A stretch of 36,432 nucleotides of DNA. Origin: a virus. The stretch's first letter is position 1. Every line of letters starts with the position of its first letter. The notes below the pieces were generated by a model that was given only the letters and a program-made list of their open reading frames with translations, was not told the origin of the DNA and did not search any database. The translations under genes were made by a program, and so were the position numbers. Location of the stretch: the IMG/VR virus record IMGVR_UViG_3300009285_002066, positions 1-36,432 of that record. One strand, given 5' to 3'. Of this stretch, positions 10,301 through 28,819 are shown piece by piece.

Positions 10301-13300
10301 GCACCGCCACGCCAATGTCGTTCAATGCGTTCAGATAGACGTTGCCTGTCTTGGGGAAAAATACGCCTTCTGTTCCCCTGGGGTTGTAGGTCTCGCCTAT
10401 CCTGTCAGCGTACTTCTTGGCCACGTTCTTTATCTTTTCGGACAGCTTGAAATCTTCTTTAGCTGTGGCTCCTTCCGCTGTCACCTTCTCGATCTTGTCA
10501 ATCTGAGTGGAACCCTTAGCCGCTGATACGCCTTTGCCGCCTGCCTTTTTAGGCGCGCCTTTTATGGCTTTCGCTCCAACCACTGATTGATCGTTACCTG
10601 AAAAATGATGAGGACTTGCCTCGCTTTCCGGCCTGGACCAAAACACAACATCGCCATCAATGACAGATAGGGAGTCCTTCAGGTACGCAGGATTTATTCC
10701 GGTCACAGGGATGGCCTTAGTTTTGTCAAGCATTGGCATAACAATGTTGCCAGAAGTAGGCTTAAATGCGGGCACTGTTTTTGTCTTAACTGGGATGCTA
10801 ACGCTTTTTCCTCCAGACTTCGGGTCTCCAACCGTAAATTCTACGCTCTCTTTTGAAAACTTTGTTGCCATAATTACGCCGCGCCCTGCTTGTTTGATGT
10901 ATGGCGCAAGTTCTTTTAATGCGGCAAGCGCCTGATCTTTGCTGAGAATAACCTGATACTTCATGTCCGAAGGGATAACTCCAGCTGTCTTGGGGTATTC
11001 ACCATCAATGAGACGGACGGACAATGTCGTGTCTCCATCGGAAAACGAAAGCGAATTTTCTCCTAAACTAAGCTGAATGCTTCCCTCTTTCATGGCCTTC
11101 ATTCCTGCAATTACCTTTCCCCCAACAACTGGAAGAATGTATTTCCCATCCTTCAATCCCTTAGCATTGATAGGCTCAAAATACATGCGCCGCCCATCAG
11201 TACCAACGATTTGCCCTTTTCCTCCCTTAACCTCAATGTAGGTGCCTCGAAGTGTGTGGCGCGTTTCGTCTTCGCTTGAAAATTTGCTGGCCTTCTCTAA
11301 AGAGTCAAGCAATGCGGAACGTTCAATGGTGCCGCCGTCTTTGGTGGTTTCTGGTAAGGCTGGGAAATCTGCGGGGTCCAGACTTGTCTTGTCCATGTTC
11401 TTTCCCATAATCTTGTATGCTCCAGGGGCAAGGTTTGACTTCGTTGTTAAAGCAACTTCAAGATCGGTTGCCATCATGTTTCCCTTGCTGTCAACTACAA
11501 CATGCTGAAGGATAGGAAGTTTCGAGCCTTTATGGATTATTGACTTCATGGCGGATACTGCGTCGGTTGTCTTGGATGGTTTTTTTGTAGAGATTATTGG
11601 GTCATCAGCCACCGTCGCCGCTGCTGGCTTTTCGGCCAGAGGCACTTCAGGCGGCCTTTCGCTGATGGGCTTAGATGTGAGTGTTGGAGTAGCTTCAGCC
11701 GGCACGCTGGGGATGTGCTTGACCTCAATGGAGCCGCCGCCGGGCAGGGGGATGATGGTTGACGCTGGGGGATTTGATGGGCCGTATCCTTTAGGGGTGA
11801 CATCCGTAATTGTAGATTGTATTTTCTTTCCAGCCAACCTACTCTCTCCAATGCTGGCCTGATCTTTTTCAACCTGGCGCCTGACTGATAAAAGCTCATC
11901 AGGGGATAATTTCCTTCCGTTAAATTCACCAGTCCTGAGCGTTAGCTGTCCCTCTGCAATAGAGTTGCGAACCTCCTGTACCTGTCTGGGGTCGGTTATG
12001 GTTGGTTTCTGTGGTTCGGGGGAGGGAGGGGTTACTTCTGCGGCTGACTGGCTGGGGCTGACGGTTTGTTGAACTTCACTTGTCGCCCGTCCGGGTACAA
12101 TATCCCCGTCAGCTTTCCCGCCTTGTACAGAAGAAGCGGTTCTGCTAACCGTTGGGGATACTTCTTTCGAAGTTCTTGCGTAGAGTGTATCTTGCCCTTG
12201 GGGGAATTCATTTTTTGTTCCTTCCAGTTCATTATAACCCCGAACATACTCACTTGTCAAGGGGACGATATTCTTTATACCTTTCACCTCGTCGGAAATC
12301 CTGCCCTGAACATCTTTCCAGTTAAACCCAAACACGCCACTGATGGTTATGCCCTTGTGAGTCTTCCCCGTTTTTTTACCAACAGTTTCCAATTCAGCTA
12401 TCATGTCCTGAACCTTTTGTATGTCTTGATGCACCTTGACTGGATTTAGCGGGTTCTTCCCTGTCAAGTTTAACGGCAGGACAAGCTCGTCACCTCCCCA
12501 AATTATAGGGGTATACCCAAGATCGGAAAACATCTGAACCAATTCCCTTATAAAATAGTTCGATCCCTCCATTGTCAGCCGCAGGTTCAAATCATGCAGG
12601 TTGTCAATGTCCAGCAACACCATAGAAGAGTCTTTTACAAGTTTGTCGTCAAACTTCCTGCGCATAAACATAAACCTTTTAGCAAGCCCGCCAAACCTGG
12701 TATCAGAAAACTCTGCTTTTGCGATTTCGTTTATGTCTGCAACATTCTTGGGTTCGCCCAGCTTTTCGATGGCCTTCCCTAAACCGCTCTTCCTGGGAAC
12801 GTAGAAATTATCGGCAAAGTTCTCTGTCTTCACAATATTGTCAAAGGCGTACTTCTCTATGGGAGCCCTGCGTTCCACCGGCTCGACCTTGACGATTCTT
12901 TCCTTTGTTGGTGGGATTATGTTGGCCTCACTTTCAGCTTCAACCGTGTATTTCTTACCTGTTTCTGTGATCAATGTGAATTTTTGCAATACCTCAGCAG
13001 ATTCCTCCGCTTCCTGTCCACTAAAAAATAGACCTTTTTTGCCTGAAATAGGCGGTTTTCCAGCTTCAGGGGGGGTAAGAGGCGCGGTGGGCGGTTTGGG
13101 ACCAACTGGCGCCATCCCTGGGGCTGCTGGCGGCTCTGTGGGGGGCTTTTCTGCCACCATTCCCTCTCTTGGCGCCTGTTCTGCCGGCACAACGTCCTGC
13201 CTGGGACCTAAAGGGTAAAGCCTTTTGATCTTTGGACCGGAAGGAAAGCCCAGTTTCTTGCTTAAATTTGCGTACCAGTCTTCAGGATAAAGCAACTCTA

Positions 13301-14183
13301 CTGCCCTGTCTGGAACGGTTACAGTTGTAGCCTTACCTGTCCTCGCGGTATGGTCGGCCAGGTCCTTAAAGCCGGGAGCCATGGTGTCCATTTTGTTCAT
13401 GGCCGCTTCGCCGCCGTTCTTGTAGATGGCCTCAACCTTTTCAGTCGTCAATTCAACTGTGAAAGCTGGCAATTTTGCCTCTTTTACGGCTTTCCTGTAG
13501 GCAAATTTGTCGAATCCAGCTCCAGACAACTGCGCGGCTGCCGAAAACAGCGTAAATCCAGCCATGTTTCGCGCCATGCGCCCAGGAAGCGTCTCGTCGT
13601 CCTCGCCTTTTGTGAAGGCAGTAAAGGGAACCGATTCAACCGCGGAGTTGACTACATTGAAAATTCGAGGGTTTTTGGCTATCCATGTGGCAATAGCTGG
13701 CAGTTGCTTTGCCGGGGCTGTTATCAGTTTTGTCGCGTAATTTGAAGGAATGGCCTGGGCCAGAAACATGGCGCCATTCAACTGTTCCCTTCTGGAACTG
13801 GCCCGCATACCAAGAACTGTCGGATCGAGGCCGGGATCCCGTTTTAGAAGTGTCTCTTTTAAAAGCTCGTTTGATCCAGTTTCAATCTCTTTGTTTACAG
13901 CGTCTTCCCATAGCTGTAGCTCTTTCGGCTTCTCCCATGGAGTAGGCGGTATGACTTCCGGTGCGCGAATTTCAGGATCAATCCCTGTCCTTACCTTTGG
14001 TATGTTTATTTCCCCTGTAAGAGCGTCAAAACGGGGAACGCTTGGGGAGAGTTTAACTTCTGGCGGAATGTCCTGTTCTTGTTCCCATGGAGGCGGAGGG
14101 ATAGAGCTTTCTGTCTCCCATGGAGGTGGCGGAATGTCTTCTTCAGTTTCCCATGGTGCAGGTGGAACTATTCTTGAACCCAT
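7359..14183 (-). CDS. Giant multidomain virion-type protein: PPxPWE repeats, GGDEF-like, DnaN-like clamp, zincin, LPD38-like (2274 aa)
   Basis: Domains in order: three 11-residue PPxPWExExxI repeats (about 7-39); helical region (90-310); Pro-rich linker (325-390); a GGDEF-like domain (about 450-670) with VLLDIDNLHDLN and WGGDELVLPL; a linker to 870; a three-part DnaN-type sliding clamp (about 872-1185) with LPILQHVVVD, ATDLEVAL, VGTDGRRMYF, LIDGEYPKTAGVIPSD and NPAYLKDSL; an HExxH zincin (VAVHETFHAM, His about 1295, plus downstream EEGLAILF); long helices; and a C-terminal region (about 1690-2170) resembling LPD38 of large polyvalent proteins, with KSIPFFNPGIQVLAQFG and one likely membrane helix (VVAAITASIIGSFAYMM). 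The ATG at 14183 is preferred over GTG at 14210. Such giants are injected or internal virion proteins in related phages; the individual roles are inferred. Confidence 0.85.
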   Translation of the reverse strand: MGSRIVPPAPWETEEDIPPPPWETESSIPPPPWEQEQDIPPEVKLSPSVPRFDALTGEINIPKVRTGIDPEIRAPEVIPPTPWEKPKELQLWEDAVNKEIETGSNELLKETLLKRDPGLDPTVLGMRASSRREQLNGAMFLAQAIPSNYATKLITAPAKQLPAIATWIAKNPRIFNVVNSAVESVPFTAFTKGEDDETLPGRMARNMAGFTLFSAAAQLSGAGFDKFAYRKAVKEAKLPAFTVELTTEKVEAIYKNGGEAAMNKMDTMAPGFKDLADHTARTGKATTVTVPDRAVELLYPEDWYANLSKKLGFPSGPKIKRLYPLGPRQDVVPAEQAPREGMVAEKPPTEPPAAPGMAPVGPKPPTAPLTPPEAGKPPISGKKGLFFSGQEAEESAEVLQKFTLITETGKKYTVEAESEANIIPPTKERIVKVEPVERRAPIEKYAFDNIVKTENFADNFYVPRKSGLGKAIEKLGEPKNVADINEIAKAEFSDTRFGGLAKRFMFMRRKFDDKLVKDSSMVLLDIDNLHDLNLRLTMEGSNYFIRELVQMFSDLGYTPIIWGGDELVLPLNLTGKNPLNPVKVHQDIQKVQDMIAELETVGKKTGKTHKGITISGVFGFNWKDVQGRISDEVKGIKNIVPLTSEYVRGYNELEGTKNEFPQGQDTLYARTSKEVSPTVSRTASSVQGGKADGDIVPGRATSEVQQTVSPSQSAAEVTPPSPEPQKPTITDPRQVQEVRNSIAEGQLTLRTGEFNGRKLSPDELLSVRRQVEKDQASIGESRLAGKKIQSTITDVTPKGYGPSNPPASTIIPLPGGGSIEVKHIPSVPAEATPTLTSKPISERPPEVPLAEKPAAATVADDPIISTKKPSKTTDAVSAMKSIIHKGSKLPILQHVVVDSKGNMMATDLEVALTTKSNLAPGAYKIMGKNMDKTSLDPADFPALPETTKDGGTIERSALLDSLEKASKFSSEDETRHTLRGTYIEVKGGKGQIVGTDGRRMYFEPINAKGLKDGKYILPVVGGKVIAGMKAMKEGSIQLSLGENSLSFSDGDTTLSVRLIDGEYPKTAGVIPSDMKYQVILSKDQALAALKELAPYIKQAGRGVIMATKFSKESVEFTVGDPKSGGKSVSIPVKTKTVPAFKPTSGNIVMPMLDKTKAIPVTGINPAYLKDSLSVIDGDVVFWSRPESEASPHHFSGNDQSVVGAKAIKGAPKKAGGKGVSAAKGSTQIDKIEKVTAEGATAKEDFKLSEKIKNVAKKYADRIGETYNPRGTEGVFFPKTGNVYLNALNDIGVAVHETFHAMSKKYSTAEPLMRKIGSSKTGTPIYNTVYAKVRKKLTELYVEYYPGGVKTHKLETRMEEGLAILFQKSVESPSELYSKYPELVNMYLKGGGSFYRPIYTDMLADFRKVLGEYQNLSNLDKVGARMTNKFQQDEIKDSYLNFWDKIKSEIADNLYAIEKLAREAGVQRTASDPSLWARQYNNVNHFILNNINGKRGYWTYKNGSFSKDTDKSISDFVNELQKKGLVDNFSHWLIARRQHFLYQELDKLEAVAIAARERIDDLMKSPSIMAMKDIAELKKKIEIYRQAKEILKRDGFDKAVIDSAYEEGKATFTEFAKTYDLYNQSNLEMMADGDVGLITSGQVSRYSSIEGYASFKRDVYDDIIGTGEALPGVRVGKTKVSSLLGRKGSKLSIINPLYSLITDSAEIMRKSLRQMVYNKIGGLADQFPELFQKLPLEPSYDTRNGRITYPQEKDTNIIMARDRNGKRVPILVSKEIKKVVDELMSYQDVGIFEKLMKTSSRWFTKGTTGTYPLFAPTNFLIDQISAASQTRNKMIPIYDALKNISKALWKHGSKEAEFFEEYMVMGGERQTFVRHQDTPPEELFKILAKEKKGLDLIAKAIEDGLDFLSWPVKVSEFATRGTEYIKSRMSGHSQVVAMEDAGRVSVPFHHTGRWWGGSSLIKSIPFFNPGIQVLAQFGRTLGQKDTKNRALFVVAAITASIIGSFAYMMKRASKEQKQAYKDLEPNELANYLWLPHSDGKRLVKLRIPEQMGIIGHIINMALADIAMDAKYSAGDYAAGATAFLPDQFNVTDPTRVFFSWLPQLIKPLIGVATNTRDYPKVRPLEGKWFEGMEPRQRFNDNTSKFAKFMGDKLNLSPIKIDYLIEGYLGRVTRFVTGKPISNPFIRDWYFSAGRNLQDYYEMRDETRQSLKAIKEKTSKLSTAEKEKVHSRHGAITRIERQIDRYREMEKRSKPKEAEGMPELRTIILDGIGDLR
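14067..14165 (-). repeat. Three tandem 33-base units coding PPxPWExExxI
   Basis: At the N-terminus of the giant protein the units PPAPWETEEDI, PPPPWETESSI and PPPPWEQEQDI follow each other without a gap; the DNA shows the recurring TCCCATGG on the plus strand. A fourth, isolated copy (IPPTPWEKPKEL) lies about 40 residues later. Such proline-tryptophan motifs could serve as binding tags for a partner protein. Confidence 0.85.
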
Positions 14184-15001
14184 CCGCCGGCCTTGGTGTA
14201 GCGCCACCACTTCTTTGTCTTGGGGTCCTGCCTTCTTGTGGCTGTTTCTGATCCGGTTGCTCCTGCCCCAGCGCCGCCCGATCCGTTAGAACCTCCTTCC
14301 TTCTTCTTGAAATAGTTGGCAAGCGCATCGCCCATCTCTCCTGCCTTCTTAACTCCCTTCCTGGCCATAGCCTTACCTTCCTGAATCAGGCTTGGGGTTT
14401 CTGGTTCTGCCCTTTCCTCTACCTTTTTTGCAAATGGTGAGGGGTCTGCACCGATATAGACAGACGCTTCGTAGGCTAATTGCCGTGTAGCTTCGTTCAA
14501 TGGCCCAAGTTTTAATTCTTTAAGAGCATTTAAACGGATAGCCCTTGCGTCTTTTGACCTGGGCGACTCAGCGGAAGATCCTCTGGGTGGAGCGGACCGT
14601 CTTTGTTCGTCAGGTGGTCTTTCCCATTGATTTGTTTCATCGTTAAATAAAAACCCGCTCTTTGGCGACGGACTCATAGTCACATCTTCAAAAACAGAAT
14701 TACGTATTGGGGATGCAACAGGATCAGCCATTCTTGTTTCAATGTAAGGGTAATCTTGGCCAAACCGTTCATCTCTTTTCATGTATTCTTTCCTGAATGA
14801 AGGTGTTCCTGGTTGACTTATATTATAACCAACAGTCTCTTCGCCTGTCTGTCGTTGCTCTGGAATTTTTCCTGTTTCTAAAACTGCATTGTATTCAGCA
14901 GCAGTTTTAATTGCACCAGAAACTATTCCCATTTTCGCAATTTGTAATCTTAATTCGTCGTCTTTTCTTTGCTGTTCCCTACGCCTTGTCATCATTCCCA
15001 T
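14168..15001 (-). CDS. Probable internal virion protein (277 aa)
   Basis: A strong ribosome binding site (AACAGGAGGGAACC) precedes MGMMTRRREQ. The N-terminus is helical (QQRKDDELRLQIAKMGIVSG), the middle is low-complexity and charged (RPPDEQRRSAPPRGSSAESP), residues about 165-230 are helical, and the end is Gly-rich followed by PKTKKWWRYTKAGGWVQE. No enzyme motif is visible. Its location between the 363-residue protein and the giant protein suggests an ejection-type component. It overlaps the giant gene's start by 16 bases. Confidence 0.7.
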   Translation of the reverse strand: MGMMTRRREQQRKDDELRLQIAKMGIVSGAIKTAAEYNAVLETGKIPEQRQTGEETVGYNISQPGTPSFRKEYMKRDERFGQDYPYIETRMADPVASPIRNSVFEDVTMSPSPKSGFLFNDETNQWERPPDEQRRSAPPRGSSAESPRSKDARAIRLNALKELKLGPLNEATRQLAYEASVYIGADPSPFAKKVEERAEPETPSLIQEGKAMARKGVKKAGEMGDALANYFKKKEGGSNGSGGAGAGATGSETATRRQDPKTKKWWRYTKAGGWVQE

Positions 15002-15028
15002 GACGGTTCCCTCCTGTTATTTTCAAAT

Positions 15029-16120
15029 TCAACCAAATATATCCATGCCGCTTCTAACAAGGTCAAGTCCCCCCTTAGCAATTCCCATAACATTCCCTAT
15101 GGCATCAAAGCTATTGCCTCCGGTTCGTGTCTTCATGAATGTTTGATACTGATCGCTGGCCAACTGCTTATCCAGAGAATTTGTTTTAAATGTCAATTCG
15201 TCGTAGAACCGCTTTTCCGCACTGGTAAGCTCTTCTTTTTGTAGTAGTTTTTTGAAGAGGTTGTTGATAGTGTTGATCCTTTCGTTGCTGGATAATTCAG
15301 CAAATGTCTTCTGTCCAGATAGTCCAAGCTCAGCGCCAGTCAACTGTCGCTTCAGACCTCTTTCTGCCTCGCCCTGCTCAGCGCCAACGTCAAGCCCTAA
15401 AAGTTTATACCGAAGGTCTTTTTCGGCTTGATCCTGAGCCGTACCAGCGGCATACCTTTGTCCGTATGCTCCCCTCAACGCTTCTTCTCTGGCCTTCTGT
15501 CTGCCGATCTCCGCCATTCCAAGCTGAGTCCTGGCCCCAGCCTTTGTCTTAGCTCCGCCAGACCTTATCTGGGCCAATGCATTGGCCTCAATATCTGATA
15601 TTTGCCCAGGCCCACCAAGCCCCCTGTCCAGATAGTCCATCTTTGACGATCCTATGTCTTGCGCCGTCTGTTCGTCAATGCCCTGCAAGGTCTGATTTAG
15701 CAGATCTGTTTCCAAACTCTTCTGAACCTGATCAACGGAAGACGGCGCACCTATAGTTTTAAGGTAGTCCTGAAAATACTGATCGCCAACTCCTGATGGA
15801 GCATTGTATCGGCTTGAAGGCGCAACTGGTCCACCCACATTTCCAGGCATGAATGAACCGCCACCAATTCCGCCACCCTGACCGGGATTTAGCAAAAAAT
15901 CGTAATTGGACGAACCGCCAAGCATGCTTTGCAACAATGCGTCATAACTGAAGCCGGTATCACTGGCCGGAGGAGCTACTGGAAGTAATGCTCCGTTGTC
16001 CCCTGGACTTAAAGCATCCAGCTTTCGTCTGGTTAAATGTTGCGGTGACATTGCCGTAAAATTGAATGGAAGCATATTGGGATTTTTTGATTCCTGATAT
16101 GGAAGATATTCTATAGCCAT
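15029..16120 (-). CDS. Probable internal virion or ejection protein, Gly-rich then helical (363 aa)
   Basis: After MAIEYLPYQESKNPNMLPFN the first 125 residues are Gly/Pro/Ser-rich (LLNPGQGGGIGGGSFMPGNV). From about 125 on the protein is helical and Gln/Ala-rich (QKSLETDLLNQTLQGIDEQT; AGARTQLGMAEIGRQKAREE; AAGTAQDQAEKDLRYKLLGL), ending in a small hydrophobic-glycine segment (IGNVMGIAKGGLDLVRSGM). This composition and its place between the stabilisation-like tail gene and the giant protein fit a podovirus internal/ejection protein. AAAAGGAGAATACC gives the ribosome binding site. No signal peptide, in contrast to the genes just upstream. Confidence 0.7.
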   Translation of the reverse strand: MAIEYLPYQESKNPNMLPFNFTAMSPQHLTRRKLDALSPGDNGALLPVAPPASDTGFSYDALLQSMLGGSSNYDFLLNPGQGGGIGGGSFMPGNVGGPVAPSSRYNAPSGVGDQYFQDYLKTIGAPSSVDQVQKSLETDLLNQTLQGIDEQTAQDIGSSKMDYLDRGLGGPGQISDIEANALAQIRSGGAKTKAGARTQLGMAEIGRQKAREEALRGAYGQRYAAGTAQDQAEKDLRYKLLGLDVGAEQGEAERGLKRQLTGAELGLSGQKTFAELSSNERINTINNLFKKLLQKEELTSAEKRFYDELTFKTNSLDKQLASDQYQTFMKTRTGGNSFDAIGNVMGIAKGGLDLVRSGMDIFG

Positions 16121-16132: not shown

Positions 16133-18622
16133 TTAATCGTCGTCTTCGGGATCAGTGTCATAGTAAACAGCCGAATTGAGTAACGCCCAGTCGGTTGCGC
16201 TATTCACCGTCCATTTCAGACTCAAAAACTTGCCCTGCTGGGCCTGGTTAAACGGAACCGGCAACTTGAAGTCTTGTATCCCGCTTTCTCCGTTCATCTG
16301 GTAACTTGCAAAGTCATGGGCCGTATTCACACCGTCAAGATAATACTCGGTCTGAAGCGTAGCATCGCTCCTGTTCGTTGTCATGTAAATATAGTCAAAC
16401 GTCTTCCTGTTGTTAAGTGATCCGAAGATGTGGCTTTTTGACTTGAAGTAGGCGTTTATGTTTGCCCCGTTGTCTGAGTTTCCTGTTTCTGCCTGCCAGA
16501 TTCCTCCCTGGTTCCCAAATAGAATGTTCCCGTTGTAAACGTTAATGTTGTCTGCGTTTATTCCGGAATATAAATGGAAGTCATAATTTCTGTCACAGAC
16601 GAAGATACTATTGTTGGCTGAAGATGAAATGGCAACCGACAGCCAGTACTGTTTTCTATTTGTAAAAACGGATGCCGTCCTCAATAGTGCGCCCTCATTC
16701 CAATTGAAAGTTACCGCGTTTAATGTGGGCGATTGGGTTGAGTCTGTCTTTGTGAAATAAACAACTGCGGAAGCATACGGCCCTGTGGCGATAGTTGGAA
16801 TAGCCCCAGAGGTTATTGCTTGCTTGGAAGTGTAGGTAGTAGCATCCGTCGGATTAATAATGGCATCTGTGTCGGAAAAAATATCAAAAGTCATTGTGCC
16901 GTCATTTAATGCGTTGGTAACATTGAACGTCCCCCAGGAGGTGATGTTTGTTCCTATGTTAATTGGCTGAGTCGTAAAACTTGAAGACAAGATTCCTGGA
17001 CCAAAAATAGATATTTCGCCAAGAGATAACTCGTTGTACGGAAAGCCTGTTGATGCTGGGTTGCTTGGATTATAGTGAATATTGAAATATCCAGAGCCAA
17101 CGTAAGTGTTATCGGTAACACTTGCTATCAAGATTTTTTGGGGGTTGAGAGGGTCGGTGTGCTTGACGTTTCTATAAATTGAAAATATGTTATCCGTTGA
17201 TCTAAAAACCATAACGTCGGCATGTCCGGAAACGCCTTGCGCCACCATAGAAGATGCAAGGACCGTAAGTGATCCGATAGAATTTGTAATGCCAAATCTA
17301 AACAGATAATTTGTCCCTGATGTTGACAGCTCAAGACGGTACCCGTTTGCTCCTTCAAAATCAATTATAGAATTTGACATTATGTCATAGTTCTGAATGC
17401 CAAGCAACGAACTGAATTGTATGTTTATCAACCAGTATCCATAGGAAACGCCAGATAGCGTCCATATCGAAGATTGGCACTGCAATGGACTGCCTGGTAA
17501 CCCACAATCGGAGATGCTGGAAGTTTTTAGCCTTCCGCTTTCAATAGAAAAGCTGCCATTCATTACCGTCCATGTGTGGTTATTTGTATAATCACCATCT
17601 TCAAAATCGTCGTCTGCTGACGGCGTGCTAATAAAAACAACATCTCCCGGATAGGCAACGGAAGACAACCCCGCAGTAAAACTTCCAGCCCCCCAGTCAG
17701 CAGCGGTCGTTTGCGTCCATACCCTTTGATTTAGATCTCCTTGGACAAACGACGCCATAAGCGTGTCGTTGTCTTCTGTGATTTTCTTGTAAGTGCTCCC
17801 ATCAAATTCATATATAGACCTGTCCGAAGTTAACCATCTCAGCACCCCATCGCAATCCTGTACGCTTTCCGGATAAGAAGACCCTATATCTTGGCTGTAT
17901 GCTATAGATCCAAAATTGGTCCTTCGGCTTCCAGTTATGGCACCAAAAGAATGGGGCTTAAACCACATCAGCTTATCTTTAAAAGATGCAAAAAAAACAG
18001 ACAAGTTTTCGTCAAGTTTACCCTGGACCTGTATCCTGGTTGGGGAATCCTCAGTGGGGTTTACTTCCAGGTTAAAGGCACTCCCGTCCAGATACTTGGA
18101 CCCGTAAATTTCGCGCCTGTTATTTACATTGTTTACCCACAACCTTCCCTTGTGGGCTACCATCAGACTCATTTTAAGGCCAGGGCTTGAGATAGTGACA
18201 GAGTTCCCATCCCAGTACTTCAGCCCATCCGTTTGGTTCCCATAATAGAAACGATCACCAAAGGCAACTCCTACCGTCAGAACATTTACGTCAACTGTTC
18301 CAACAAATACGGTGAAATTTGTGATTCCAGCAGTCGCCTTCAATGTGCCGCTGCTTTGGTTTATAAGGTAACGGGTTCCGTTGGAAAGAGGGAATACCCA
18401 TTTGGATATGGAAGTTTCTGTACTAAAAGCAACAAACCCTTTTCGCGGTTTAATGCCGTTTATAACGTCAGTAACCACGTTCAGAGCATCTGGGCTCTGC
18501 CCGTCTTGCATTGTGATCTCTGAGTCGTCGGTGTTAAGTCCGCGTGGACGTGGAAGATTGAAAACTTCAGCGCAAAGCGAAGAAACTAAAAAAAAAAGAG
18601 GCAGGATCAGGAGTTTTTTCAT
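16133..18622 (-). CDS. Stabilisation/tail-hub-like virion protein with a Sec signal peptide (829 aa)
   Basis: Right after a signal peptide (MKKLLILPLFFLVSSLCA, cleavage near 18) the mature protein opens with NLPRPRGLNTDDSEITMQDG and QSPDALNVVTDVINGIKPRK, the hallmark start of phage stabilisation or tail-tubular-B-type proteins, which normally lacks a leader. Then follow beta-rich repeats resembling propeller or jelly-roll modules (WVNNVNNRREIYGS, IYEFDGSTYKKITED), and the C-terminal region has TYIYMTTNRSD-like sequence and NQAQQGKFLSLKW. It overlaps the adaptor gene by ATGA. The leader is in frame with no plausible later start before NLPRPRG, so export seems intended. Confidence 0.75.
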   Translation of the reverse strand: MKKLLILPLFFLVSSLCAEVFNLPRPRGLNTDDSEITMQDGQSPDALNVVTDVINGIKPRKGFVAFSTETSISKWVFPLSNGTRYLINQSSGTLKATAGITNFTVFVGTVDVNVLTVGVAFGDRFYYGNQTDGLKYWDGNSVTISSPGLKMSLMVAHKGRLWVNNVNNRREIYGSKYLDGSAFNLEVNPTEDSPTRIQVQGKLDENLSVFFASFKDKLMWFKPHSFGAITGSRRTNFGSIAYSQDIGSSYPESVQDCDGVLRWLTSDRSIYEFDGSTYKKITEDNDTLMASFVQGDLNQRVWTQTTAADWGAGSFTAGLSSVAYPGDVVFISTPSADDDFEDGDYTNNHTWTVMNGSFSIESGRLKTSSISDCGLPGSPLQCQSSIWTLSGVSYGYWLINIQFSSLLGIQNYDIMSNSIIDFEGANGYRLELSTSGTNYLFRFGITNSIGSLTVLASSMVAQGVSGHADVMVFRSTDNIFSIYRNVKHTDPLNPQKILIASVTDNTYVGSGYFNIHYNPSNPASTGFPYNELSLGEISIFGPGILSSSFTTQPINIGTNITSWGTFNVTNALNDGTMTFDIFSDTDAIINPTDATTYTSKQAITSGAIPTIATGPYASAVVYFTKTDSTQSPTLNAVTFNWNEGALLRTASVFTNRKQYWLSVAISSSANNSIFVCDRNYDFHLYSGINADNINVYNGNILFGNQGGIWQAETGNSDNGANINAYFKSKSHIFGSLNNRKTFDYIYMTTNRSDATLQTEYYLDGVNTAHDFASYQMNGESGIQDFKLPVPFNQAQQGKFLSLKWTVNSATDWALLNSAVYYDTDPEDDD

Positions 18623-19347
18623 TTGCCGCTGCCCGCGCTGATAGATGGGGAATAGTTGTACATGGTGCTGATCCTGTTCCGCATCAGCCCCAGCCCGTTC
18701 GTGTACATGGCCAGGTAGGCGTTCGCTTCGTCCACCTTGCGCTCGATCATCTTGATCCTGTACGTGGCATGATAGACAAGCGTCTGATGGTAGGTGTAAA
18801 ATGCCCTCTTGCCGTCAAATGGTACGTCACTGGCGGCGCTCAGGTCAGGAGCCTGGTAATAGAAGCGGACAGTCACAGTCCCGGTACTGGTAACAGTGGG
18901 GATAGGGATATAGGAGATGGTCTGTTGCGCTGAGGTTGTGGCCTGGTCCACCCAATACTCCAGCGGTTCCCCGTTACTCTTGCGCCAGTCCTGGTTGCCA
19001 TTGTCCAATCCCTTTAAAGTCTTCTCCTCCAACGGTTGGATGTTGCCTTGTGGGTTTTTGAAGTCAACGTGGGTTATGACCAGCAGGTCTGTGGGCAGCA
19101 GGTAGTAGGTGGTCAGAGGAGAAAGGGAATAGCTGGAGCTTCGTTCAATTAGCCAAGTGGCGTTCACCACCTCGCGTTGCGCTTCATTGATGAAGTCGAG
19201 CAAAACGGCGTCAGTATAGCGTTGCCTGGTTGCGTCAGTGTCCCTGATGTTGCGCCGGACCTGTGTCCGAATGTCCGCAAGGGTCAGGCCGAAACAGTTT
19301 ACTGAAAACAGGAATAAGGGAAGAACCGCTAAGCAGAATTTTTTCAT
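18619..19347 (-). CDS. Head-to-tail adaptor-like protein with a Sec signal peptide (242 aa)
   Basis: A leader (MKKFCLAVLPLFLFSVNCFG, cleavage near 20) precedes LTLADIRTQVRRNIRDTDAT and LLDFINEAQREVVN, the helical start of phage adaptor/gatekeeper proteins that attach below the portal; further on are YLLPTDLLVITHVDF and LEYWVDQ, a beta part, and a C-terminal helical segment with YHQTLVYHATYRIKMIERKV. Such adaptors act in the cytoplasm on filled heads, so the signal peptide is anomalous. The ATG overlaps the upstream gene (ATGA) and the stop overlaps the next gene (ATGA). Family assignment is from pattern memory. Confidence 0.7.
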   Translation of the reverse strand: MKKFCLAVLPLFLFSVNCFGLTLADIRTQVRRNIRDTDATRQRYTDAVLLDFINEAQREVVNATWLIERSSSYSLSPLTTYYLLPTDLLVITHVDFKNPQGNIQPLEEKTLKGLDNGNQDWRKSNGEPLEYWVDQATTSAQQTISYIPIPTVTSTGTVTVRFYYQAPDLSAASDVPFDGKRAFYTYHQTLVYHATYRIKMIERKVDEANAYLAMYTNGLGLMRNRISTMYNYSPSISAGSGK

Positions 19348-19724
19348 GAGCTCTTTTTAACCTCGTAAGGTTTCATGGCTTCTTCAAGCAGGCCTCTGTT
19401 GTAATAGGTGGGCACGGCACTTACCCTGCCTCTGTCATCAACCACCAGCTCTCGAGACATCACTTTAACGGCCGATCCGGCCGCCACCTCTGCGGCCATG
19501 TCCACGTCTGTGTTAAGTATCATCTGACTGGTGTTTCCTCCCTGCAATAAGGAAGTAATTTTAAACGGCTGTTTGTGCTCCAGAGTTCCCTTCAGTTTCA
19601 AATTGTCGTAGTCAGAAAATTTACTGAAGGACGCCTTGTACAGAACATAGGTATCCTGCGCCGCCGCCATGGTTAAGCAGGCGAAAACGATACTACTGAC
19701 TGTGAGCGCCCTTGCCATCCTCAT
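19344..19724 (-). CDS. Exported small virion-module protein (126 aa)
   Basis: The leader MRMARALTVSSIVFACLTMA ends in AAAQD, an AxA signal-peptidase-I site near residue 22. The mature 104 residues are mixed alpha/beta (DTYVLYKASFSKFSDYDNLK; DVDMAAEVAAGSAVKVMSRE; RVSAVPTYYNRGLLEEAMKP) without cysteines or recognised domains. GAGGAAATTGT gives a ribosome binding site inside the end of the lectin-like gene, which it overlaps by 32 bases. Its position directly upstream of the adaptor suggests a neck or tail component. Confidence 0.7.
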   Translation of the reverse strand: MRMARALTVSSIVFACLTMAAAQDTYVLYKASFSKFSDYDNLKLKGTLEHKQPFKITSLLQGGNTSQMILNTDVDMAAEVAAGSAVKVMSRELVVDDRGRVSAVPTYYNRGLLEEAMKPYEVKKSS

Positions 19725-20523
19725 ACAATTTCCTCATTACGCCGTCAGTAAACTGCATAGGTTGAGTTGCAGCGTTGTCTATCCTCATAATAACAATATC
19801 GTCTATGGATACATTCGTTGCCTGGTTCTCGTTTACGTTAAAAAACCTATCACCAACAAACGGCTCCCGTCCGTTAGCTGTCATTTCCCCGCCTATGGTT
19901 TCGCTGTTTGTGCAATTCTTCCCGGCATATTTTCCATTATAAAAAAGTCTTACGGAATCTGAACCAGCAGAACCATTACCATTATAAGTAAATCCAATAT
20001 GGTACCATTCCATCTTACTGAATGCTGAAGTTGAAAACGTTGAGGATGACTGAACATTCATTCCGGTATTGGTTGTCCAGTAAAGTATGCAACTAACCAT
20101 CCTACCGGCAAACCCTGTGCAGTTGGTTAAATCTGTAAGGATACTCAACTCCCATCCCCTGTACCCGCTGGCCAATTTAAGTTTAGAAATTACTGTAGTG
20201 TTCGCAGTTATCGGCCCTTTAATCCACCCCGAAACAAGCATCTGATCGTATTGAGTTAGCTCGTAGCTCGCTGTTTGACCACCGATTCGGACGTTATCGT
20301 TGGTCCCATCGAAAGACAGCGATTTCCCGAACTTTCCAGTCACCCAGGCTGCGCCAGTAATTACCGCCTGAGTGCTCTTGCCAAGAGATCCGGACGCGAG
20401 AGACCCCTCGCCTTCATTTAAATGATAGATCTCAATGATGTTGGCCTTCTGCCGATTACCAGACTGGCCGGCAGAACAGAACGATGCCAGTAAAAGAACG
20501 GTAAGTACCGCTCTAATTGCCAT
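19693..20523 (-). CDS. Exported LamG/concanavalin-like protein (276 aa)
   Basis: A signal peptide (MAIRAVLTVLLLASFCSA, cleavage near 18) is followed by a LamG-type jelly-roll: IIEIYHLNEGEGSLASGSLG (about 29-48), WVTGKFGKSLSFDGTNDNVR (about 58-77), VSGWIKG, then WYHIGFTYNGN and VRLFYNGKYAG, and IDDIVIMRIDNA. Such folds bind carbohydrate or form trimer-forming fibre domains, so host-surface binding is likely. AAGGAGGCGG precedes the ATG. It lies inside the run of exported proteins and overlaps both neighbours. Confidence 0.75.
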   Translation of the reverse strand: MAIRAVLTVLLLASFCSAGQSGNRQKANIIEIYHLNEGEGSLASGSLGKSTQAVITGAAWVTGKFGKSLSFDGTNDNVRIGGQTASYELTQYDQMLVSGWIKGPITANTTVISKLKLASGYRGWELSILTDLTNCTGFAGRMVSCILYWTTNTGMNVQSSSTFSTSAFSKMEWYHIGFTYNGNGSAGSDSVRLFYNGKYAGKNCTNSETIGGEMTANGREPFVGDRFFNVNENQATNVSIDDIVIMRIDNAATQPMQFTDGVMRKLYEDGKGAHSQ

Positions 20524-21082
20524 CGAACCGCCTCCTTACCTTCAGCCACCACCCGAAACCGGTGGGTCCCATTCCCCCCTGAGTTGTCCATGGTGCGCTC
20601 GTAATTGCCAGCGCAATCGCTTCTCCTGAATTTATGGTCACAACAGAAGGCAGGATAGTGACGCTTCTCGTGCTCCCGGTGGTCACATGTATCCCTGCGG
20701 TAATAAAGCTCCACGTTGATCTGTCCAGGTTCACCACTGTCGAATGGGCGATATTGAACTCCGTAAAAGCAACGGAAGACGAACGGATCAGGTACGCTCC
20801 GGCTGCCAAAATGGTTAACGTGCTGTCAGGTACAACGTAGTGCGCTCCAAACGGATCAAAAGTGTCCGATCCCACATATACGTCAGACGCAGGAACCTCC
20901 AGATATATGTAGTCGGTAACGTGCGTTGACAGCGGTCCAGCGGCACCGGCCGCGCCTGCCGCTCCGTCAGCTCCAGCGGAACCATTTTTAACGAATTTGG
21001 ACCGCTTTAGCCCTGCCGCGTTGGCGTTCAGGGCTGAAATGAAAATAAGTAAGGCCGCGATGGCCAGGACGTGCTTTTTCAT
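20513..21082 (-). CDS. Exported protein with a short collagen-like stretch (189 aa)
   Basis: I chose ATG at 21082 (MKKHVLAIAALLIFISALNA), which gives a textbook signal peptide with an AxA site near 22 and has AGGGGTGACACT upstream; the longer frame to 21157 lies inside the preceding gene. A short Gly-rich GXX stretch (GSAGADGAAGAAGAAGPLST, about 34-53) resembles the collagen-like linkers of phage fibres, followed by a beta-rich domain (YIYLEVPASDVYVGSDTFDP; AIALAITSAPWTTQGGMGPT). Probably a fibre or head/tail decoration protein; the export signal is unusual for such. Confidence 0.7.
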   Translation of the reverse strand: MKKHVLAIAALLIFISALNANAAGLKRSKFVKNGSAGADGAAGAAGAAGPLSTHVTDYIYLEVPASDVYVGSDTFDPFGAHYVVPDSTLTILAAGAYLIRSSSVAFTEFNIAHSTVVNLDRSTWSFITAGIHVTTGSTRSVTILPSVVTINSGEAIALAITSAPWTTQGGMGPTGFGWWLKVRRRFDGN

Positions 21083-21093
21083 AGTGTCACCCC

Positions 21094-21564
21094 TCAGTCC
21101 TTCTTGAACCAGTGTTCCGATCCGCTGGCTCCACCCTTGGTCGTTGAGCTGGACCACAGGCCAAAGACGTTGCCTTGACCAGGAACCACCCAGCTATCAC
21201 CAGCAGCTATGTTAAGGGGATTGGTCGAAGATGACAAGACAATCCCAAACGTGCTGGTAATGACCGTGTATGTAGAATATGACGGATAAAGGGAAAGCAT
21301 GCCGTCCGAAGTGTTGACAATCTCCCTGAACCGCCAATACGTTACCCCTGCCAATCCAGAATTTTCCGGAGCGCTGGATATGAGGATAAAGCTATTCGTG
21401 CTTTTCCTCGCATCTATCAACCTGAAATGGTTGCCGTAGTCTTCAACCACGGGATCCACCGTTACCGCCCTCTCCGGCCCTGACGCGGCTGACCATCCTT
21501 GCGAGGAGATCAGCAGCGTTGTCAGGACAGACAGGGTAAGTAGAACTGCTTTAAATGTATTCAT
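21094..21564 (-). CDS. Exported virion-module protein (156 aa)
   Basis: A leader (MNTFKAVLLTLSVLTTLLIS, cleavage near SQGWSA) starts a protein with beta-rich mature sequence (VEDYGNHFRLIDARKSTNSF; WRFREIVNTSDGMLSLYPSY; NPLNIAAGDSWVVPGQGNVF) ending ASGSEHWFKKD. AAGGGGGACTT precedes the ATG. No known domain is recognised. The pattern NPLNI..GD.W.VPGQGNVFGLWSS suggests a cupin-like or beta-sandwich decoration fold, but this is weak. Confidence 0.65.
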   Translation of the reverse strand: MNTFKAVLLTLSVLTTLLISSQGWSAASGPERAVTVDPVVEDYGNHFRLIDARKSTNSFILISSAPENSGLAGVTYWRFREIVNTSDGMLSLYPSYSTYTVITSTFGIVLSSSTNPLNIAAGDSWVVPGQGNVFGLWSSSTTKGGASGSEHWFKKD

Positions 21565-21588
21565 AAGTCCCCCTTGCCTGTCTGTTTT

Positions 21589-22458
21589 TTATGGAAATGT
21601 CCTTTTTCCTCTGTGCATGAAGATATAGTCAAGGAACTGGTTCGGAACATTTTTTGGAGTAATGGTCCCGAACGTAGGGCTGATGGTGACTTGTGGATCA
21701 GTTGCCCTCACCGTTGTTGACCCCTCAATTATTTTGTAAATATCGTCTGCCCTGTCAAAATAATTGCCCAGTCCTATCTTGTTCCCAATTCCAACCTGAA
21801 TTTTAACGTCTTCAATCGTGCAGCAAACAGAAGACGCCGAAATTGCCACGGAGGATATGAAGGTCCAGGCATTGTTGCTTCTACCGATAGTCGTAGAAAA
21901 AGCAACCGTCTCCTGCCTTGCGAATCCGCGCGAGTCAGTTCCATAGACAATGGCTGACAGTGTTATGGTCTGTGTGGCAGGATTAACTCCGACATACGCC
22001 TGCAATATCACATCTCTCGGAGCGCCTGTGGAGAATGCGAAAGACTCAGTGAAATCAAAGTCGGAATAGTTAGTTCCGCTCCTGATCAGTGTGTTGGTGG
22101 AAACAGTGAGCCCGTTTACACGATAGGCGTCAGAGCTTGACGTGGCCAGGTTGTTCCATGTCTCTTGCCATGACCCTATCCCTGAAGAGACAATGAGGTT
22201 CCCAAAATATACGTTCCTCCACTGCCCACTCGATTGACCAATGTCAGAGGCCAAATTTCTCCCGTTCTGAATGTTCCCGTCATAGTCAATCCTAAACAGA
22301 GTAGTTGAAACCCCGTTCCTGAACTGACCTTGCGTGAAGAAGTCGGGAGACTCCCTCTTGTTTTCAACTCCGTACACCTGTTTTGTCCCACCCAAAAGAA
22401 CAGCAAGCAGGATAAAGATACTCAGCGCTCTCGCGCCGTATTCAAAAAACTTCTTCAT
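21589..22458 (-). CDS. Exported fibre-like protein (289 aa), first of the signal-peptide gene run
   Basis: The N-terminus MKKFFEYGARALSIFILLAV and LLGGTKQVYG form a long signal peptide (cleavage near 30). The mature part contains FRIDYDGNIQNGRNLASDIG and SGQWRNVYFGNLIVSSG (about 55-95), the DIG..W.NVY motif of phage fibre proteins, then Ser/Thr-rich beta sequence (RVNGLTVSTNTLIRSGTNYS). Two adjacent cysteines (SSVCCTIED) occur near 213. AAAGGGAGGTAGC precedes the ATG. Similar in motif to the 6769-7356 protein, suggesting a fibre family. Confidence 0.7.
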   Translation of the reverse strand: MKKFFEYGARALSIFILLAVLLGGTKQVYGVENKRESPDFFTQGQFRNGVSTTLFRIDYDGNIQNGRNLASDIGQSSGQWRNVYFGNLIVSSGIGSWQETWNNLATSSSDAYRVNGLTVSTNTLIRSGTNYSDFDFTESFAFSTGAPRDVILQAYVGVNPATQTITLSAIVYGTDSRGFARQETVAFSTTIGRSNNAWTFISSVAISASSVCCTIEDVKIQVGIGNKIGLGNYFDRADDIYKIIEGSTTVRATDPQVTISPTFGTITPKNVPNQFLDYIFMHRGKRTFP

Positions 22459-22472: not shown

Positions 22473-22949
22473 TTATCTGCTCGATGGCCTGATAGTTTCG
22501 AGATTGGCGTCCTCAAACCTGCCCAGCTGACGCATCCCATTTTTGAACCGTTCCGCGACCTTCTGAAATTCAGGAGAGTTTTCTCTCCTTGCCATTTCGT
22601 TTACTGCCTTCCTGTACTGCGGGTCCATTGGGTTTGGCCTCAACATCACATGGCTTTTTGGGACCATGTTCTTTTGTAGCCATTCCTTATCCTGTTTGTT
22701 CCTGTTTTCCAGGGAAGCTCTTTCGTGCTTGTTTATGGAATCCGGCTGACCCTGCGCCAGCACCCTTTTCTGTCTCTCTATCGTCTCCCTTTCTGCGGGA
22801 GTGTTGACCCTGTCCGGGTTGTACAGGTTCCTGTGATTGATAACAGCCGTGTCGTCGGCGTTATCTTTGATGCTTGTCGTCAGGCTCTGCGTCTCTGCGG
22901 GCGTCAATATGCGCCTCACCCCTGGCCTCGATACTGTTTTGGTACTCAT
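22473..22949 (-). CDS. Helical hypothetical protein downstream of the major capsid gene (158 aa)
   Basis: ATG at 22949 (MSTKTVSRPGVRRILTPAET) is chosen because GGAAAGGAGGAGTACC lies upstream; the longer frame runs into the capsid gene. The protein is polar and charged with helical stretches (ETIERQKRVLAQGQPDSINK; QYRKAVNEMARRENSPEFQK) and ends LGRFEDANLETIRPSSR. No signal peptide, no cysteines. A virion or capsid accessory role is suggested only by position. Confidence 0.7.
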   Translation of the reverse strand: MSTKTVSRPGVRRILTPAETQSLTTSIKDNADDTAVINHRNLYNPDRVNTPAERETIERQKRVLAQGQPDSINKHERASLENRNKQDKEWLQKNMVPKSHVMLRPNPMDPQYRKAVNEMARRENSPEFQKVAERFKNGMRQLGRFEDANLETIRPSSR

Positions 22950-22974
22950 AATGGTACTCCTCCTTTCCAGTTTT

Positions 22975-23862
22975 TCAGCTGACTTCTGCGCCAAAAACAA
23001 AGCGCCAGTCAGAGAATCCGAATCCGTAGAACATGTAGGCCAGGTACTTGGCCACAAGTCCATCGAAGTCTTCGGCCTGCTTGAACTCCATGGGGTCAAT
23101 CTCGTTCCAGATCGCAAACTCTTTTAAGAGCTCGGAATCAATGAGGAACCAGTTGTTGGTATCGGTAAGCCGTTTCAGGCTCAGCGATTTGTACTTGCCA
23201 ACATGGAAGTTGCGGTTGTTGTTTGCGGTGTCAACCTTACCGTTGGACTTGATAACTTCATAAACCGCCTCATCCAGGTCCGGTGGATGAACGATCAGGT
23301 CAGGCTCCACGTCAAACACGTTCCCCCTGTTCGTGAGGAACTTGATCATGCTCAGCCGGTTGGCTTCCAGCGATACAGCGTTGAAAGCAGCTGTTCCACG
23401 GTTGCTCTGGCTCGGCCCGCCCTGGTTGCTCGTATGCGCAGCGCTGCACAGCTGCAGGGTGTCGTTGGTGGTGATGGATGTGTTGAAGGCGTTGTTGTAC
23501 CCAAAAACCACATCGTTTGCGATGCGTCGGCGCCCAGCCAGCCCCAGCAACTTCGAGAACCCCTTGACCACGTTCAACTGATCGGTCCTCGCCAATTTCT
23601 TCTGGATTTTAATCCCCTTGGCGTATTCCTTGGCAGTGATGGTCATTTTGTAACCTTGTGCCACGTCGTCGTAGTCCACAGATCCCGTGAACTCGTCCAT
23701 CAGACCCACGTCACCCATTTCGAGATAGGTTTCGGTGTCTTTGTTCGATTTACGCACGTCGAACAGCATGTCCCTTTCGGCCGGCACTTCCTTGTAGCCA
23801 ACAGCGAAACTCTTATGCGCTATCGGTTCAAGAGCGTCAGCCCAATTTCCAGTGGTAATCAT
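22975..23862 (-). CDS. Major capsid protein, HK97 fold, Mu gpT-like (295 aa)
   Basis: The opening MITTGNWADALEPIAHKSFA and YKEVPAERDMLFDVRKSNKD, the central VSLEANRLSMIKFLTNRGNV, DLIVHPPDLDEAVYEVIKSN (about 183-202) and the C-terminal LAYMFYGFGFSDWRFVFGAE match the HK97-fold capsid proteins often annotated as Mu F/gpT-like major head subunits in environmental phages. It would form the icosahedral shell on the scaffold. GAAGGAGGAGACAAG precedes the ATG. Order portal, scaffold, decoration-like, capsid is conserved. No signal peptide. Confidence 0.85.
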   Translation of the reverse strand: MITTGNWADALEPIAHKSFAVGYKEVPAERDMLFDVRKSNKDTETYLEMGDVGLMDEFTGSVDYDDVAQGYKMTITAKEYAKGIKIQKKLARTDQLNVVKGFSKLLGLAGRRRIANDVVFGYNNAFNTSITTNDTLQLCSAAHTSNQGGPSQSNRGTAAFNAVSLEANRLSMIKFLTNRGNVFDVEPDLIVHPPDLDEAVYEVIKSNGKVDTANNNRNFHVGKYKSLSLKRLTDTNNWFLIDSELLKEFAIWNEIDPMEFKQAEDFDGLVAKYLAYMFYGFGFSDWRFVFGAEVS

Positions 23863-26677: not shown

Positions 26678-28819
26678 TTATCCACCATTCCCTTGCGCTC
26701 CAGGCGCTACCCGCTCATGTATCTGTTCTTTCAATCTTGACACCAAAGCGTTCGTCCTGACCCTGTTTGCCAGGTTCTTAATGCCGGCTGCCTTGGCCTG
26801 TTCCATGGCCTTCTGCTGCTGAATTGCGGCCTGTTGCTGGACTTGCTGCTGTTGCATGGCCATCTGCTGTTGCTGGGCCTGCTGGACCTTCATCCGCATC
26901 TGAATCTCTTCCTGCTCAATCTCTTGAATGGAAGGCAAAATCTTGTCCCGGCCTGGGATCCTCCCGCCCCTCAGCGCACGCCTCAGTATCTCAACCCTCC
27001 GCTTGGCGCTCTGGCCTATCACCGGCTCCTTGACCAGTGCCAGGTAATAGTTGTACCACTTCTGAAACTCTGAATCGGGGTTCATGGCCACCGTTACCCC
27101 GTGCATCTTGACCTTGATCCCCTTCCTCAATATCCTCTTGGGAATTGACTGCCTCTGCCGCTTGCCACCTTCTTCGCTGGCAAAATACTCCAGCTGCGCA
27201 GGTCCAAACTGGTAGAGATGAGACAGGCATATCTCTCCGGCGGTCTCAACACCGCTCCTGAGCTCGTTTATTGGGTCGTCCATCCTCAAATTGCTCTGGT
27301 TTATCAGCGCCACTGTCTTGTTGCCGGGCGCGTTGGGGTCTGAGCTCTGCGCGTTGCCTGAGAAAAGGAAGGCATCAACACCAACCGTCAGGGAACAAAT
27401 CTGGATGTCGTTCTTCTCTTCGTTCATTGACTCGCCCATGTCCGTGGGCTGAACCTTGAACTGCTCAAAACCTTCCGGGTCATCCATAAGGAAAAGGACG
27501 CCAGGGTGAAACCTGTTCTCTTCCGCTTCCAGATCAAAATCTTTGCCAAACGCGCTTTTCTTGCCCTTGAATGACGGGACCGTGGCAATCTCCCGCGACT
27601 GGATGCGCTGGTTGTGCTGAGTGTCAATTTCTTTGTTCATTTCCATCAACTGCCCGGGAACTGATGCACCGATGAGCCGGTTCGGTTTCTTCTCTATCCT
27701 GAACAGCGCGTAAAAGTCGATGCGGTACGGGTAGTCAATGAACGCCGTCAGCGCGTCTTCTTCGTAGGAATAGGTGAGCAGCAACTTCTCCTCACCATCA
27801 CCTTTCTTCAATTCAATGTAATAAACCAGCTCGAAAAATTCGTAATCGTCAGATTTACCGTCTCTTCCCAGCCCCTCTGCCCGGTCTTTAGATTGAACAT
27901 AGCTGCTGGCCTGAGTGCCGCTCCTGGTCTCGGATAGGAGTTTGGTTGTCTCTTCCTTATCCCATACGCCCTCATCTCGCTTCTTCTTGATCTCTCCGCG
28001 CCTCATGGTGAACCGTTTACCATATCCACGACAATTCTGCCGGGTAATGTTCCTGGCTGTGGCTGGAAACGTGACGAAATCTACCAGCTCTACCACTTCG
28101 GCCTTGGGACCGACATAGACCGGCTTGTCGTAGGTTATGGGGATCTCAACGGGGAAATCTTCATTCGCGTTGTCCGCAATGTATTGGCCTGTAATTTCCC
28201 ATTCTTCCTGGCTCAGCCCCGAACTTTCAGCGTCAGGAAATTCCTGCATGAACTCGTCAACATTTGAGATGAACAGTACGTCCTTGGTTTTTTCATAGTC
28301 TTCCACATAGGGAATCTGCAGAACGCCCAGTCCGTCCCGGTTGGTGGTCTGGAACACTTCGCTCAGTCCTTCCACTATGTTCCACTCGCTCTTGGCAAAA
28401 TAGTTCAATGAGTCGTCTATCCGGGATGTGTAGTCTTCCAGCGCATCTTCGTTGGTCTCCGTGTACCAGATAATGTCGCCGCCCAGGATTGACCGCCGCT
28501 CGATGCTGTGGTAAACTTTACAGTAGATGGCCGTGATGGGGATGTGCAGGCAGGACGCGCCGACCCACGGATAGTCAGTCTCTTCAACCACGCCTTCCAG
28601 CAGGTCATTGATCTCTTCCAGGTTCTTATGTAGATCGCCGGTGTTTTGTTTCCATTCAGAAATTTCACGCTTCAGGCGTTTCTTGATTTTGTCTTTCTGC
28701 GCTTTGGATAATTCCAGCAAACTGCCAAACTTGCTCCGGTACTCTTCCGTTAGGAATTCGGGGAGCTTGCTCTTGGCTGGACTTTTTTCGATTTCTTTTA
28801 ATTGTATTTCTGCGTCCAT
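26678..28819 (-). CDS. Portal protein (713 aa)
   Basis: The length and conserved blocks match large podovirus-type portals: ETDYPWVGASCLHIPITAIY (about 77-96), YHSIERRSILGGDIIWY, a long central part with LLTYSYEEDALTAFIDYPYR, the conserved IGASVPGQLMEMNKEIDTQH (about 378-397), and the motif AFLFSGNAQSSDPNAPGNKT. The last 90 residues are Gln-rich (QQAQQQQMAMQQQQVQQQAA) and helical, possibly a coiled barrel. Portals form the dodecameric DNA gate at one capsid vertex, contacted by terminase, adaptor and scaffold. Translation probably couples to the upstream gene. Confidence 0.85.
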   Translation of the reverse strand: MDAEIQLKEIEKSPAKSKLPEFLTEEYRSKFGSLLELSKAQKDKIKKRLKREISEWKQNTGDLHKNLEEINDLLEGVVEETDYPWVGASCLHIPITAIYCKVYHSIERRSILGGDIIWYTETNEDALEDYTSRIDDSLNYFAKSEWNIVEGLSEVFQTTNRDGLGVLQIPYVEDYEKTKDVLFISNVDEFMQEFPDAESSGLSQEEWEITGQYIADNANEDFPVEIPITYDKPVYVGPKAEVVELVDFVTFPATARNITRQNCRGYGKRFTMRRGEIKKKRDEGVWDKEETTKLLSETRSGTQASSYVQSKDRAEGLGRDGKSDDYEFFELVYYIELKKGDGEEKLLLTYSYEEDALTAFIDYPYRIDFYALFRIEKKPNRLIGASVPGQLMEMNKEIDTQHNQRIQSREIATVPSFKGKKSAFGKDFDLEAEENRFHPGVLFLMDDPEGFEQFKVQPTDMGESMNEEKNDIQICSLTVGVDAFLFSGNAQSSDPNAPGNKTVALINQSNLRMDDPINELRSGVETAGEICLSHLYQFGPAQLEYFASEEGGKRQRQSIPKRILRKGIKVKMHGVTVAMNPDSEFQKWYNYYLALVKEPVIGQSAKRRVEILRRALRGGRIPGRDKILPSIQEIEQEEIQMRMKVQQAQQQQMAMQQQQVQQQAAIQQQKAMEQAKAAGIKNLANRVRTNALVSRLKEQIHERVAPGAQGNGG

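Follow-up and report, generated by a model that had tools for sequence, protein, structure and literature searches.

A run of seven consecutive neck and tail genes in an uncultured virus begins with signal peptides for the Sec pathway, and such leaders on this block are a conserved trait of a phage group. The virus is IMG/VR record IMGVR_UViG_3300009285_002066, analysed here as a window of 36,432 nucleotides (the whole stretch of DNA), in which all the block genes lie on the minus strand. Leaders are found on the neck ring, the nozzle and the fibres and on none of the head parts, which suggests that this group of uncultured short-tailed phages makes heads and tails on opposite sides of the inner membrane and joins them late.

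On the minus strand, the genes run in the order terminase, GroES, portal, scaffold-like protein, capsid, a gene of 160 amino acids (aa), and then the seven-gene block:

21589..22458, minus strand: 289-aa leadered protein that opens the block, probable fibre or decoration (leader score 7.0; assigned by position).
21094..21564, minus strand: 156-aa leadered protein, no identity (score 6.8).
20513..21082, minus strand: 189-aa leadered protein, probable fibre (score 12.0; collagen-like GAAGAAGAAG stretch).
19693..20523, minus strand: 276-aa leadered protein, probable fibre or decoration (score 7.5; LamG/ConA-like lectin match).
19344..19724, minus strand: 126-aa leadered protein, neck/tail accessory, function unassigned (leader MRMARALTVSSIVFACLTMAAA, score 10.6).
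18619..19347, minus strand: head-to-tail adaptor, 242 aa (20-residue leader MKKFCLAVLPLFLFSVNCFG; domain from L21; PF24175, phrog_399).
16133..18622, minus strand: tail nozzle protein, 829 aa (Sec leader MKKLLILPLFFLVSSLCA, score 10.5; Foldseek matches and leadered homologues).

The scores come from a three-region scorer built here (n-region charge, h-region hydrophobicity, and a cleavage matrix). It was trained on 37 Escherichia coli signal peptides; leave-one-out scoring of the training set gave a median of 11.0 and a minimum of 6.2. As an earlier, sequence-only reading of the window had claimed, all seven open reading frames are present and each opens with positively charged residues, followed by a hydrophobic core and a site where cleavage is plausible, as in leaders of the Sec/signal peptidase I (SPase I) type; on our own scorer they score well, from 6.8 to 12.0. 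The same reading had found no leader on capsid, portal, scaffold and internal proteins, and indeed none of the window's head and packaging genes reaches a score of 5. The eighth leader that it placed at 6769-7356 stands in part: the positive end and the hydrophobic core are there, but the cleavage site is weak and the score is 4.5. Two further leaders were seen outside the block, one on a 99-aa gene at 34889-35188 (MKILVTLVFMMSAGMVWA, score 6.8) and one on a lipobox protein at 4771-5034 (score 6.2).

Mis-called starts were considered and rejected. After its first codon, the adaptor gene offers no ATG, GTG or TTG before codon 49, yet its domain starts at residue 22, and its leader is kept in diverged relatives. 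The first 60 codons of the 276-aa gene hold no alternative start either, and the next possible start in the 829-aa gene is codon 38. Shine-Dalgarno-like matches of 4 to 8 bases lie upstream of six of the seven block starts, and the seventh, that of the nozzle gene, lies in an ATGA shared with the adaptor stop codon. Chance hydrophobic N-termini were rejected as well, given their background rate and the conservation of the leaders across phages. Among 2,392 same-strand genes of related phages and prophages, 35 (1.5%) have a leader-like start, and therefore a run of seven would arise by chance with a probability of the order of 1e-13, which agrees with the earlier view that chance does not produce such a run. 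Residue order matters too: shuffling within leaders reached the observed score in 98 of 7,800 trials. Both explanations are excluded because the conserved leaders diverge yet keep the n-h-c pattern and because distant adaptors are leaderless. An artefact of any kind, non-viral secreted genes included, is barely credible in view of an adaptor that has no other start, of adaptor and nozzle folds, and of a trait kept in many phages of differing guanine-cytosine content.

The sequence-only reading had likened 18619-19347 to a head-to-tail adaptor and 16133-18622 to a stabilisation-like (nozzle) protein, and both assignments proved right. The adaptor matches Pfam PF24175 (SU10_adaptor) over residues 22-225 with an E-value (E) of 4.9e-24, at 86 bits against a cut-off of 27, and profile positions 2-184 of 194 are covered. 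In its AlphaFold model, the predicted local distance difference test (pLDDT) score is about 93 for the domain and drops to about 52 over the leader, and its Foldseek matches are the portal-tail adaptors of A4, GP4, VP1, KHP30, and SU10 (E 1e-9 to 1e-7). Proteins of PF24175 usually, though not by definition, begin at the domain; the window adaptor does not, and its 20-residue leader is kept in the clade. For the nozzle, Foldseek returned Pa223, Pan3, P-SCSP1u, T7 gp12, Pam1, SU10, and P22 gp10; the first 13 matches are all podovirus tails, in keeping with the beta-propeller nozzle fold, from a model that is weak overall (pLDDT 53) and reaches about 83 at residues 70-280. Leadered homologues of the nozzle are present on contigs L231, L232, L236, L237, L244, and L321.

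As for the other block genes, the 276-aa protein has a weak Laminin_G_3 match (E 3.5e-4, under the curated cut-off) and the 126-aa protein has no family match in the Pfam and phrog comparison. The 289-aa gene holds the position of leadered tail-fibre genes in two relatives, G015 (T4 gp36-like) and G249 (phrog_892). Block genes of relatives match tail fibre (phrog_892, E 1e-16; T4 gp36, E 3e-4), YadA-head repeats, and LamG (a leadered gene in the L244 block, E 8e-23). Because of these adaptor, nozzle, fibre, LamG, and YadA-head matches, we conclude that the leadered set is the tail machine together with its fibres.

Relatives were sought along several routes, and those from other metagenomes proved to share this arrangement of leaders. 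First searches with the adaptor, the nozzle or the terminase large subunit (TerL) singly, and with a capsid alignment (A1), retrieved only a near-identical contig or relatives with leaderless adaptors, and an adaptor alignment (A3) proved too divergent for use as a query. With a TerL alignment, L148, L217, and L152 were reached, and leadered genes lie on their contigs; scans with adaptors contributed L236, L237, L239, L243, L244, L245, and L246, and a genome search added G249, a contig of a metagenome-assembled genome (MAG). Near-identical contig pairs were at least 99.98% identical. In two of the three contigs reached through TerL (G015 and G019), both adaptor and nozzle are leadered, the G015 nozzle having a long n-region and a low score. 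In a set of ten phages annotated by hand, the window included, leaders were found on 38 of 44 block genes, the block being counted from behind the capsid genes up to and including the nozzle, but on 0 of 58 head genes and 0 of 15 genes past the nozzle.

The final scan used a capsid alignment of group members, a query that is itself unselective for leaders, and returned 80 contigs. Twenty distinct phages among them carry an SU10-type adaptor on the contig, and their leaders fall on 1 of 164 head genes, 59 of 79 block genes, and 6 of 38 post-nozzle genes (Fisher 8e-38, uncorrected for relatedness); this set overlaps with the ten-phage set and the two counts are not independent. Twenty of the 23 adaptors on capsid-scan contigs are leadered by score, with a choice of start allowed, and two more are leadered by eye; the remaining one is a truncated call. 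The leader stands directly before the domain in all 12 leadered adaptors compared in full. Identity of the window capsid to that of other members ranges from 60% down to about 23%. Since nozzles are leaderless in those capsid relatives that have a different type of adaptor (L343, L349, L363, L375, L389, L392), the trait goes with the tail module rather than with the head. Two contigs (L236 7285-8747 and L244 7294-8702) hold two tandem leadered adaptor paralogues, which perhaps form stacked rings.

Outside this clade, about 80 more distant adaptors begin at the domain and are leaderless, as are those of Vibrio phage VPMS1 and ctXG1253. Thus, the question of whether adaptor relatives carry the leader has a divided answer: it is present across the clade and absent beyond it, leaderless relatives lie only outside, and no start after the leader is available to the window adaptor. 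The leadered adaptors cluster in an adaptor tree on which three changes are needed, and the adaptor leader may have one origin. Some distant phages (L036 15143-18191, L019 10994-14116, L039 13239-16322) have leaders on fibre-like genes and a leaderless adaptor where one is seen, and ctQWt234 (L004 27247-28632) has one leadered fibre-like gene and a leaderless adaptor. More distant relatives with leaders on fibre-like genes only would suit an explanation in which just the fibres and decorations are exported, as receptor decoys or for surface masking, and in which adaptor and nozzle leaders spread by recombination and do little. We find this very unlikely: leaders without function would decay, whereas adaptor and nozzle retain theirs across diverged lineages though the leader sequences drift, including on the duplicated adaptors of L236 and L244.

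The leaders have the features of Sec/SPase I signals. The n-region mostly has a net charge of +2, the hydrophobic core has a median of 15 residues, a signal-peptide-like length, and A or S stands at -1 in 32 of 39 leaders and at -3 in 26 of 39. No lipoprotein (signal peptidase II) signal was found, as no leadered block protein has a Cys at the predicted +1. The possibility of membrane anchors in the rest of these proteins was rejected too, since no further membrane segment was found in the mature parts. The predicted cut falls at or near the domain start in most adaptors (in those of the window, L237, and L246, the scorer places its best cut a few residues away from it), and therefore a cleaved adaptor would begin at about the same point as the leaderless homologues. 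Leader sequences align poorly among relatives and the n-h-c pattern persists, which points to selection on leader function.

These features bear on three other explanations. Neck and tail parts could stay anchored in the inner membrane by uncleaved or slowly cleaved leaders, with heads docking and the tail being added there. By charge the leaders are N-in/C-out, as such tethering needs, and T4 prohead assembly is a precedent for head docking at the membrane. We nevertheless hold tethering to be unlikely, since the residues at -3/-1 and the cut at or near the domain start fit removal, the cores are shorter than typical anchors, and an N-in topology would still place the mature domain outside, away from the portal. 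That topology problem is avoided if the leaders act in the cytoplasm, delaying folding or steering chaperones so as to block assembly before packaging, with little or no export; signal peptides are known to slow the folding of preproteins. A cytoplasmic protease would then be required for leader removal, the A/S preference and the classic n-h-c order would go unexplained, and a Sec-competent leader would normally be exported, all of which makes this role decidedly improbable. Last, the hydrophobic leaders could remain on the virion and insert into the host membrane at entry, aiding DNA ejection, and adaptor and nozzle line the ejection path in solved podovirus tails. We give this very little weight, as fibres and accessory proteins are leadered too, cleavage motifs are present, and the homologues of other phages are leaderless.

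Of the two options left by the sequence-only reading, building of part of the virion at or beyond the inner membrane is thus the best-supported reading of the sequences. The membrane-anchor alternative is disfavoured because of the A/S residues, the core length, and a cut that would restore an adaptor N-terminus of the leaderless type. From the pattern of leaders we infer the following route. The head would be built and filled with DNA in the cytoplasm, and the parts added after packaging (adaptor ring, nozzle, fibres, and decorations) would be made as Sec preproteins. The leader would carry them across the inner membrane, signal peptidase I would cleave it, and the tail machine would be assembled in the periplasm. 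Filled heads would stay in the cytoplasm until the holin ruptures the inner membrane, whereupon heads and tails would meet and join, and endolysin and spanin would then free the virions. We see the chances of this scheme as evenly balanced, and put slightly below even the broader claim that a lineage of tailed phages splits virion assembly across the inner membrane with holin rupture as the joining step.

Split assembly is supported by the leaders sitting on parts that are added to the portal after packaging, the order known from solved podoviruses (PMC6702177). With leaders on tail parts and none on portal, capsid, scaffold, and probable ejection proteins, periplasmic tail assembly would be the simplest reading. 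Besides, heads and tails of phages are able to combine in vitro, in lysates, which counts in its favour.

Several observations weigh against such a route. P22-like filled heads without an adaptor leak DNA, and therefore something else must hold the DNA until lysis; by position, the leaderless gene of about 145-195 aa after the capsid (window 22473-22955) is a candidate head-completion or DNA-holding protein. Only 9 of 15 nozzles pass the scorer, several more being leadered by eye only, and some block genes of L243 and L244 are leaderless. Some siblings with leaders on fibre-like genes, their adaptor and nozzle leaderless, indicate that fibre export may have a reason of its own. Cysteine is only mildly raised in leadered block proteins (9.3 per kb vs 6.0 in head proteins), which does not point clearly to an oxidising compartment; enrichment and an even number of cysteines, as marks of folding in the periplasm, are weak or absent.

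Among known systems, the closest set of parts is that of the SU10-type (Kuravirus) short tail, made up of portal gp6, adaptor gp11, nozzle gp17, and fibres (PMC9509320). The window shares with it the adaptor family PF24175, the nozzle fold, and the set of parts outside the portal. The matched SU10 adaptor chains have 222-228 residues, whereas adaptor, nozzle, and fibres are each leadered in the window, and the available text of PMC9509320 describes no export of tail parts. The Manatee Spring podoviruses ctQWt234, ct2G2228, and ct2os315 have the same gene order (TerL-portal-capsid-adaptor-nozzle), the latter two also having related capsid genes and GroES, and VPMS1 has a related adaptor; in the Pam1-like and Manatee Spring podoviruses and in VPMS1, however, adaptors start at the domain, leaderless. 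Virion proteins with Sec signal peptides are known from filamentous phages (M13 pIII and pVIII), where pVIII is made through Sec and placed in the inner membrane before assembly. In contrast to the window phage, filamentous phages are tailless, have no capsid or portal, and are extruded without lysis, and there is no homology. For G3p, a Sec signal peptide and placement in the inner membrane before assembly are described in PMC8310372.

The protein families are known, and the leader trait and the assembly route it implies are new as far as the searched open-licence papers show, among which no report of signal-peptide-bearing neck/tail modules was found. Tailed-phage adaptors and nozzles are taken to act in the cytoplasm on freshly filled heads, and to our knowledge tailed phages are otherwise thought to assemble wholly there. 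If the proposed route is true, virions can be built in separate compartments and their parts joined at lysis, lysis timing would be linked to virion maturation, and the question arises of how DNA is retained in adaptor-free heads. The leaders would also give a gene-level signature for finding such phages.

The remaining features of the window are the following:

30506..32056, minus strand: terminase large subunit, leaderless (phrog_24361/phrog_2).
29477..29821, minus strand: GroES-like co-chaperonin, leaderless (phrog_3188, E 4.5e-8).
26678..28819, minus strand: portal protein, leaderless (weak phrog_332 connector match, E 7e-5, and position).
22975..23862, minus strand: major capsid protein, leaderless (PF25209, E 6e-12; phrog_371).
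22473..22955, minus strand: 160-aa leaderless gene between capsid and block (position; counterpart of about 145-195 aa in most group members).
7359..16120, minus strand: three leaderless genes past the nozzle, of 363, 277, and 2283 aa, for probable internal/ejection proteins.
6769..7356, minus strand: 195-aa fibre-like protein with the weaker leader, flanked by the gene for the giant internal protein and by the lysis genes.
4771..6759, minus strand: lysis region with a lipobox spanin-like protein, holin-like proteins, and an NlpC/P60-like endolysin (assigned by sequence).

The 160-aa gene and its counterparts have no family match in the domain and phrog comparison. Downstream of the block, the leaderless 363-, 277-, and 2283-aa genes are followed by the one further leadered gene and then by the lysis region. 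Post-nozzle genes hold an equal place in relatives and are likewise leaderless there, and at the place equivalent to window 6769..7356, G015 carries two leadered genes, of 740 and 165 aa. Fifteen post-nozzle proteins hold no cysteine in 6,522 residues past residue 25, perhaps because they pass through the periplasm on ejection. Two domains were seen in the 2283-aa probable internal protein (7359-14210), namely LPD38 (polyvalent protein) and DNA polymerase III beta (sliding clamp).

In the lysis region, 5948-6409 has a weak phrog_329 match and the Pfam comparison gave no supporting match. The lysis-type genes, including the lipobox protein, speak for release by lysis from a diderm host. A search of about 1,570 genomes, taken by phylum or class, gave one match, a MAG contig drawn from the phylum of a Verrucomicrobia genome; there was no match in 399 genomes of the Bradyrhizobium phylum or in 396 of the phylum of a Bacteroidetes genome, and in 294 genomes of the Planctomycetaceae phylum there was only a match in the leaderless range.

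An HNH endonuclease gene on the opposite strand (window 5380-6006) adjoins the lysis genes and is probably a homing insertion. Finally, the last 45 bases of the window (36388-36432) are present twice in contig L003, one copy at L003 30-74, and this contig extends about 330 bases beyond the window end.

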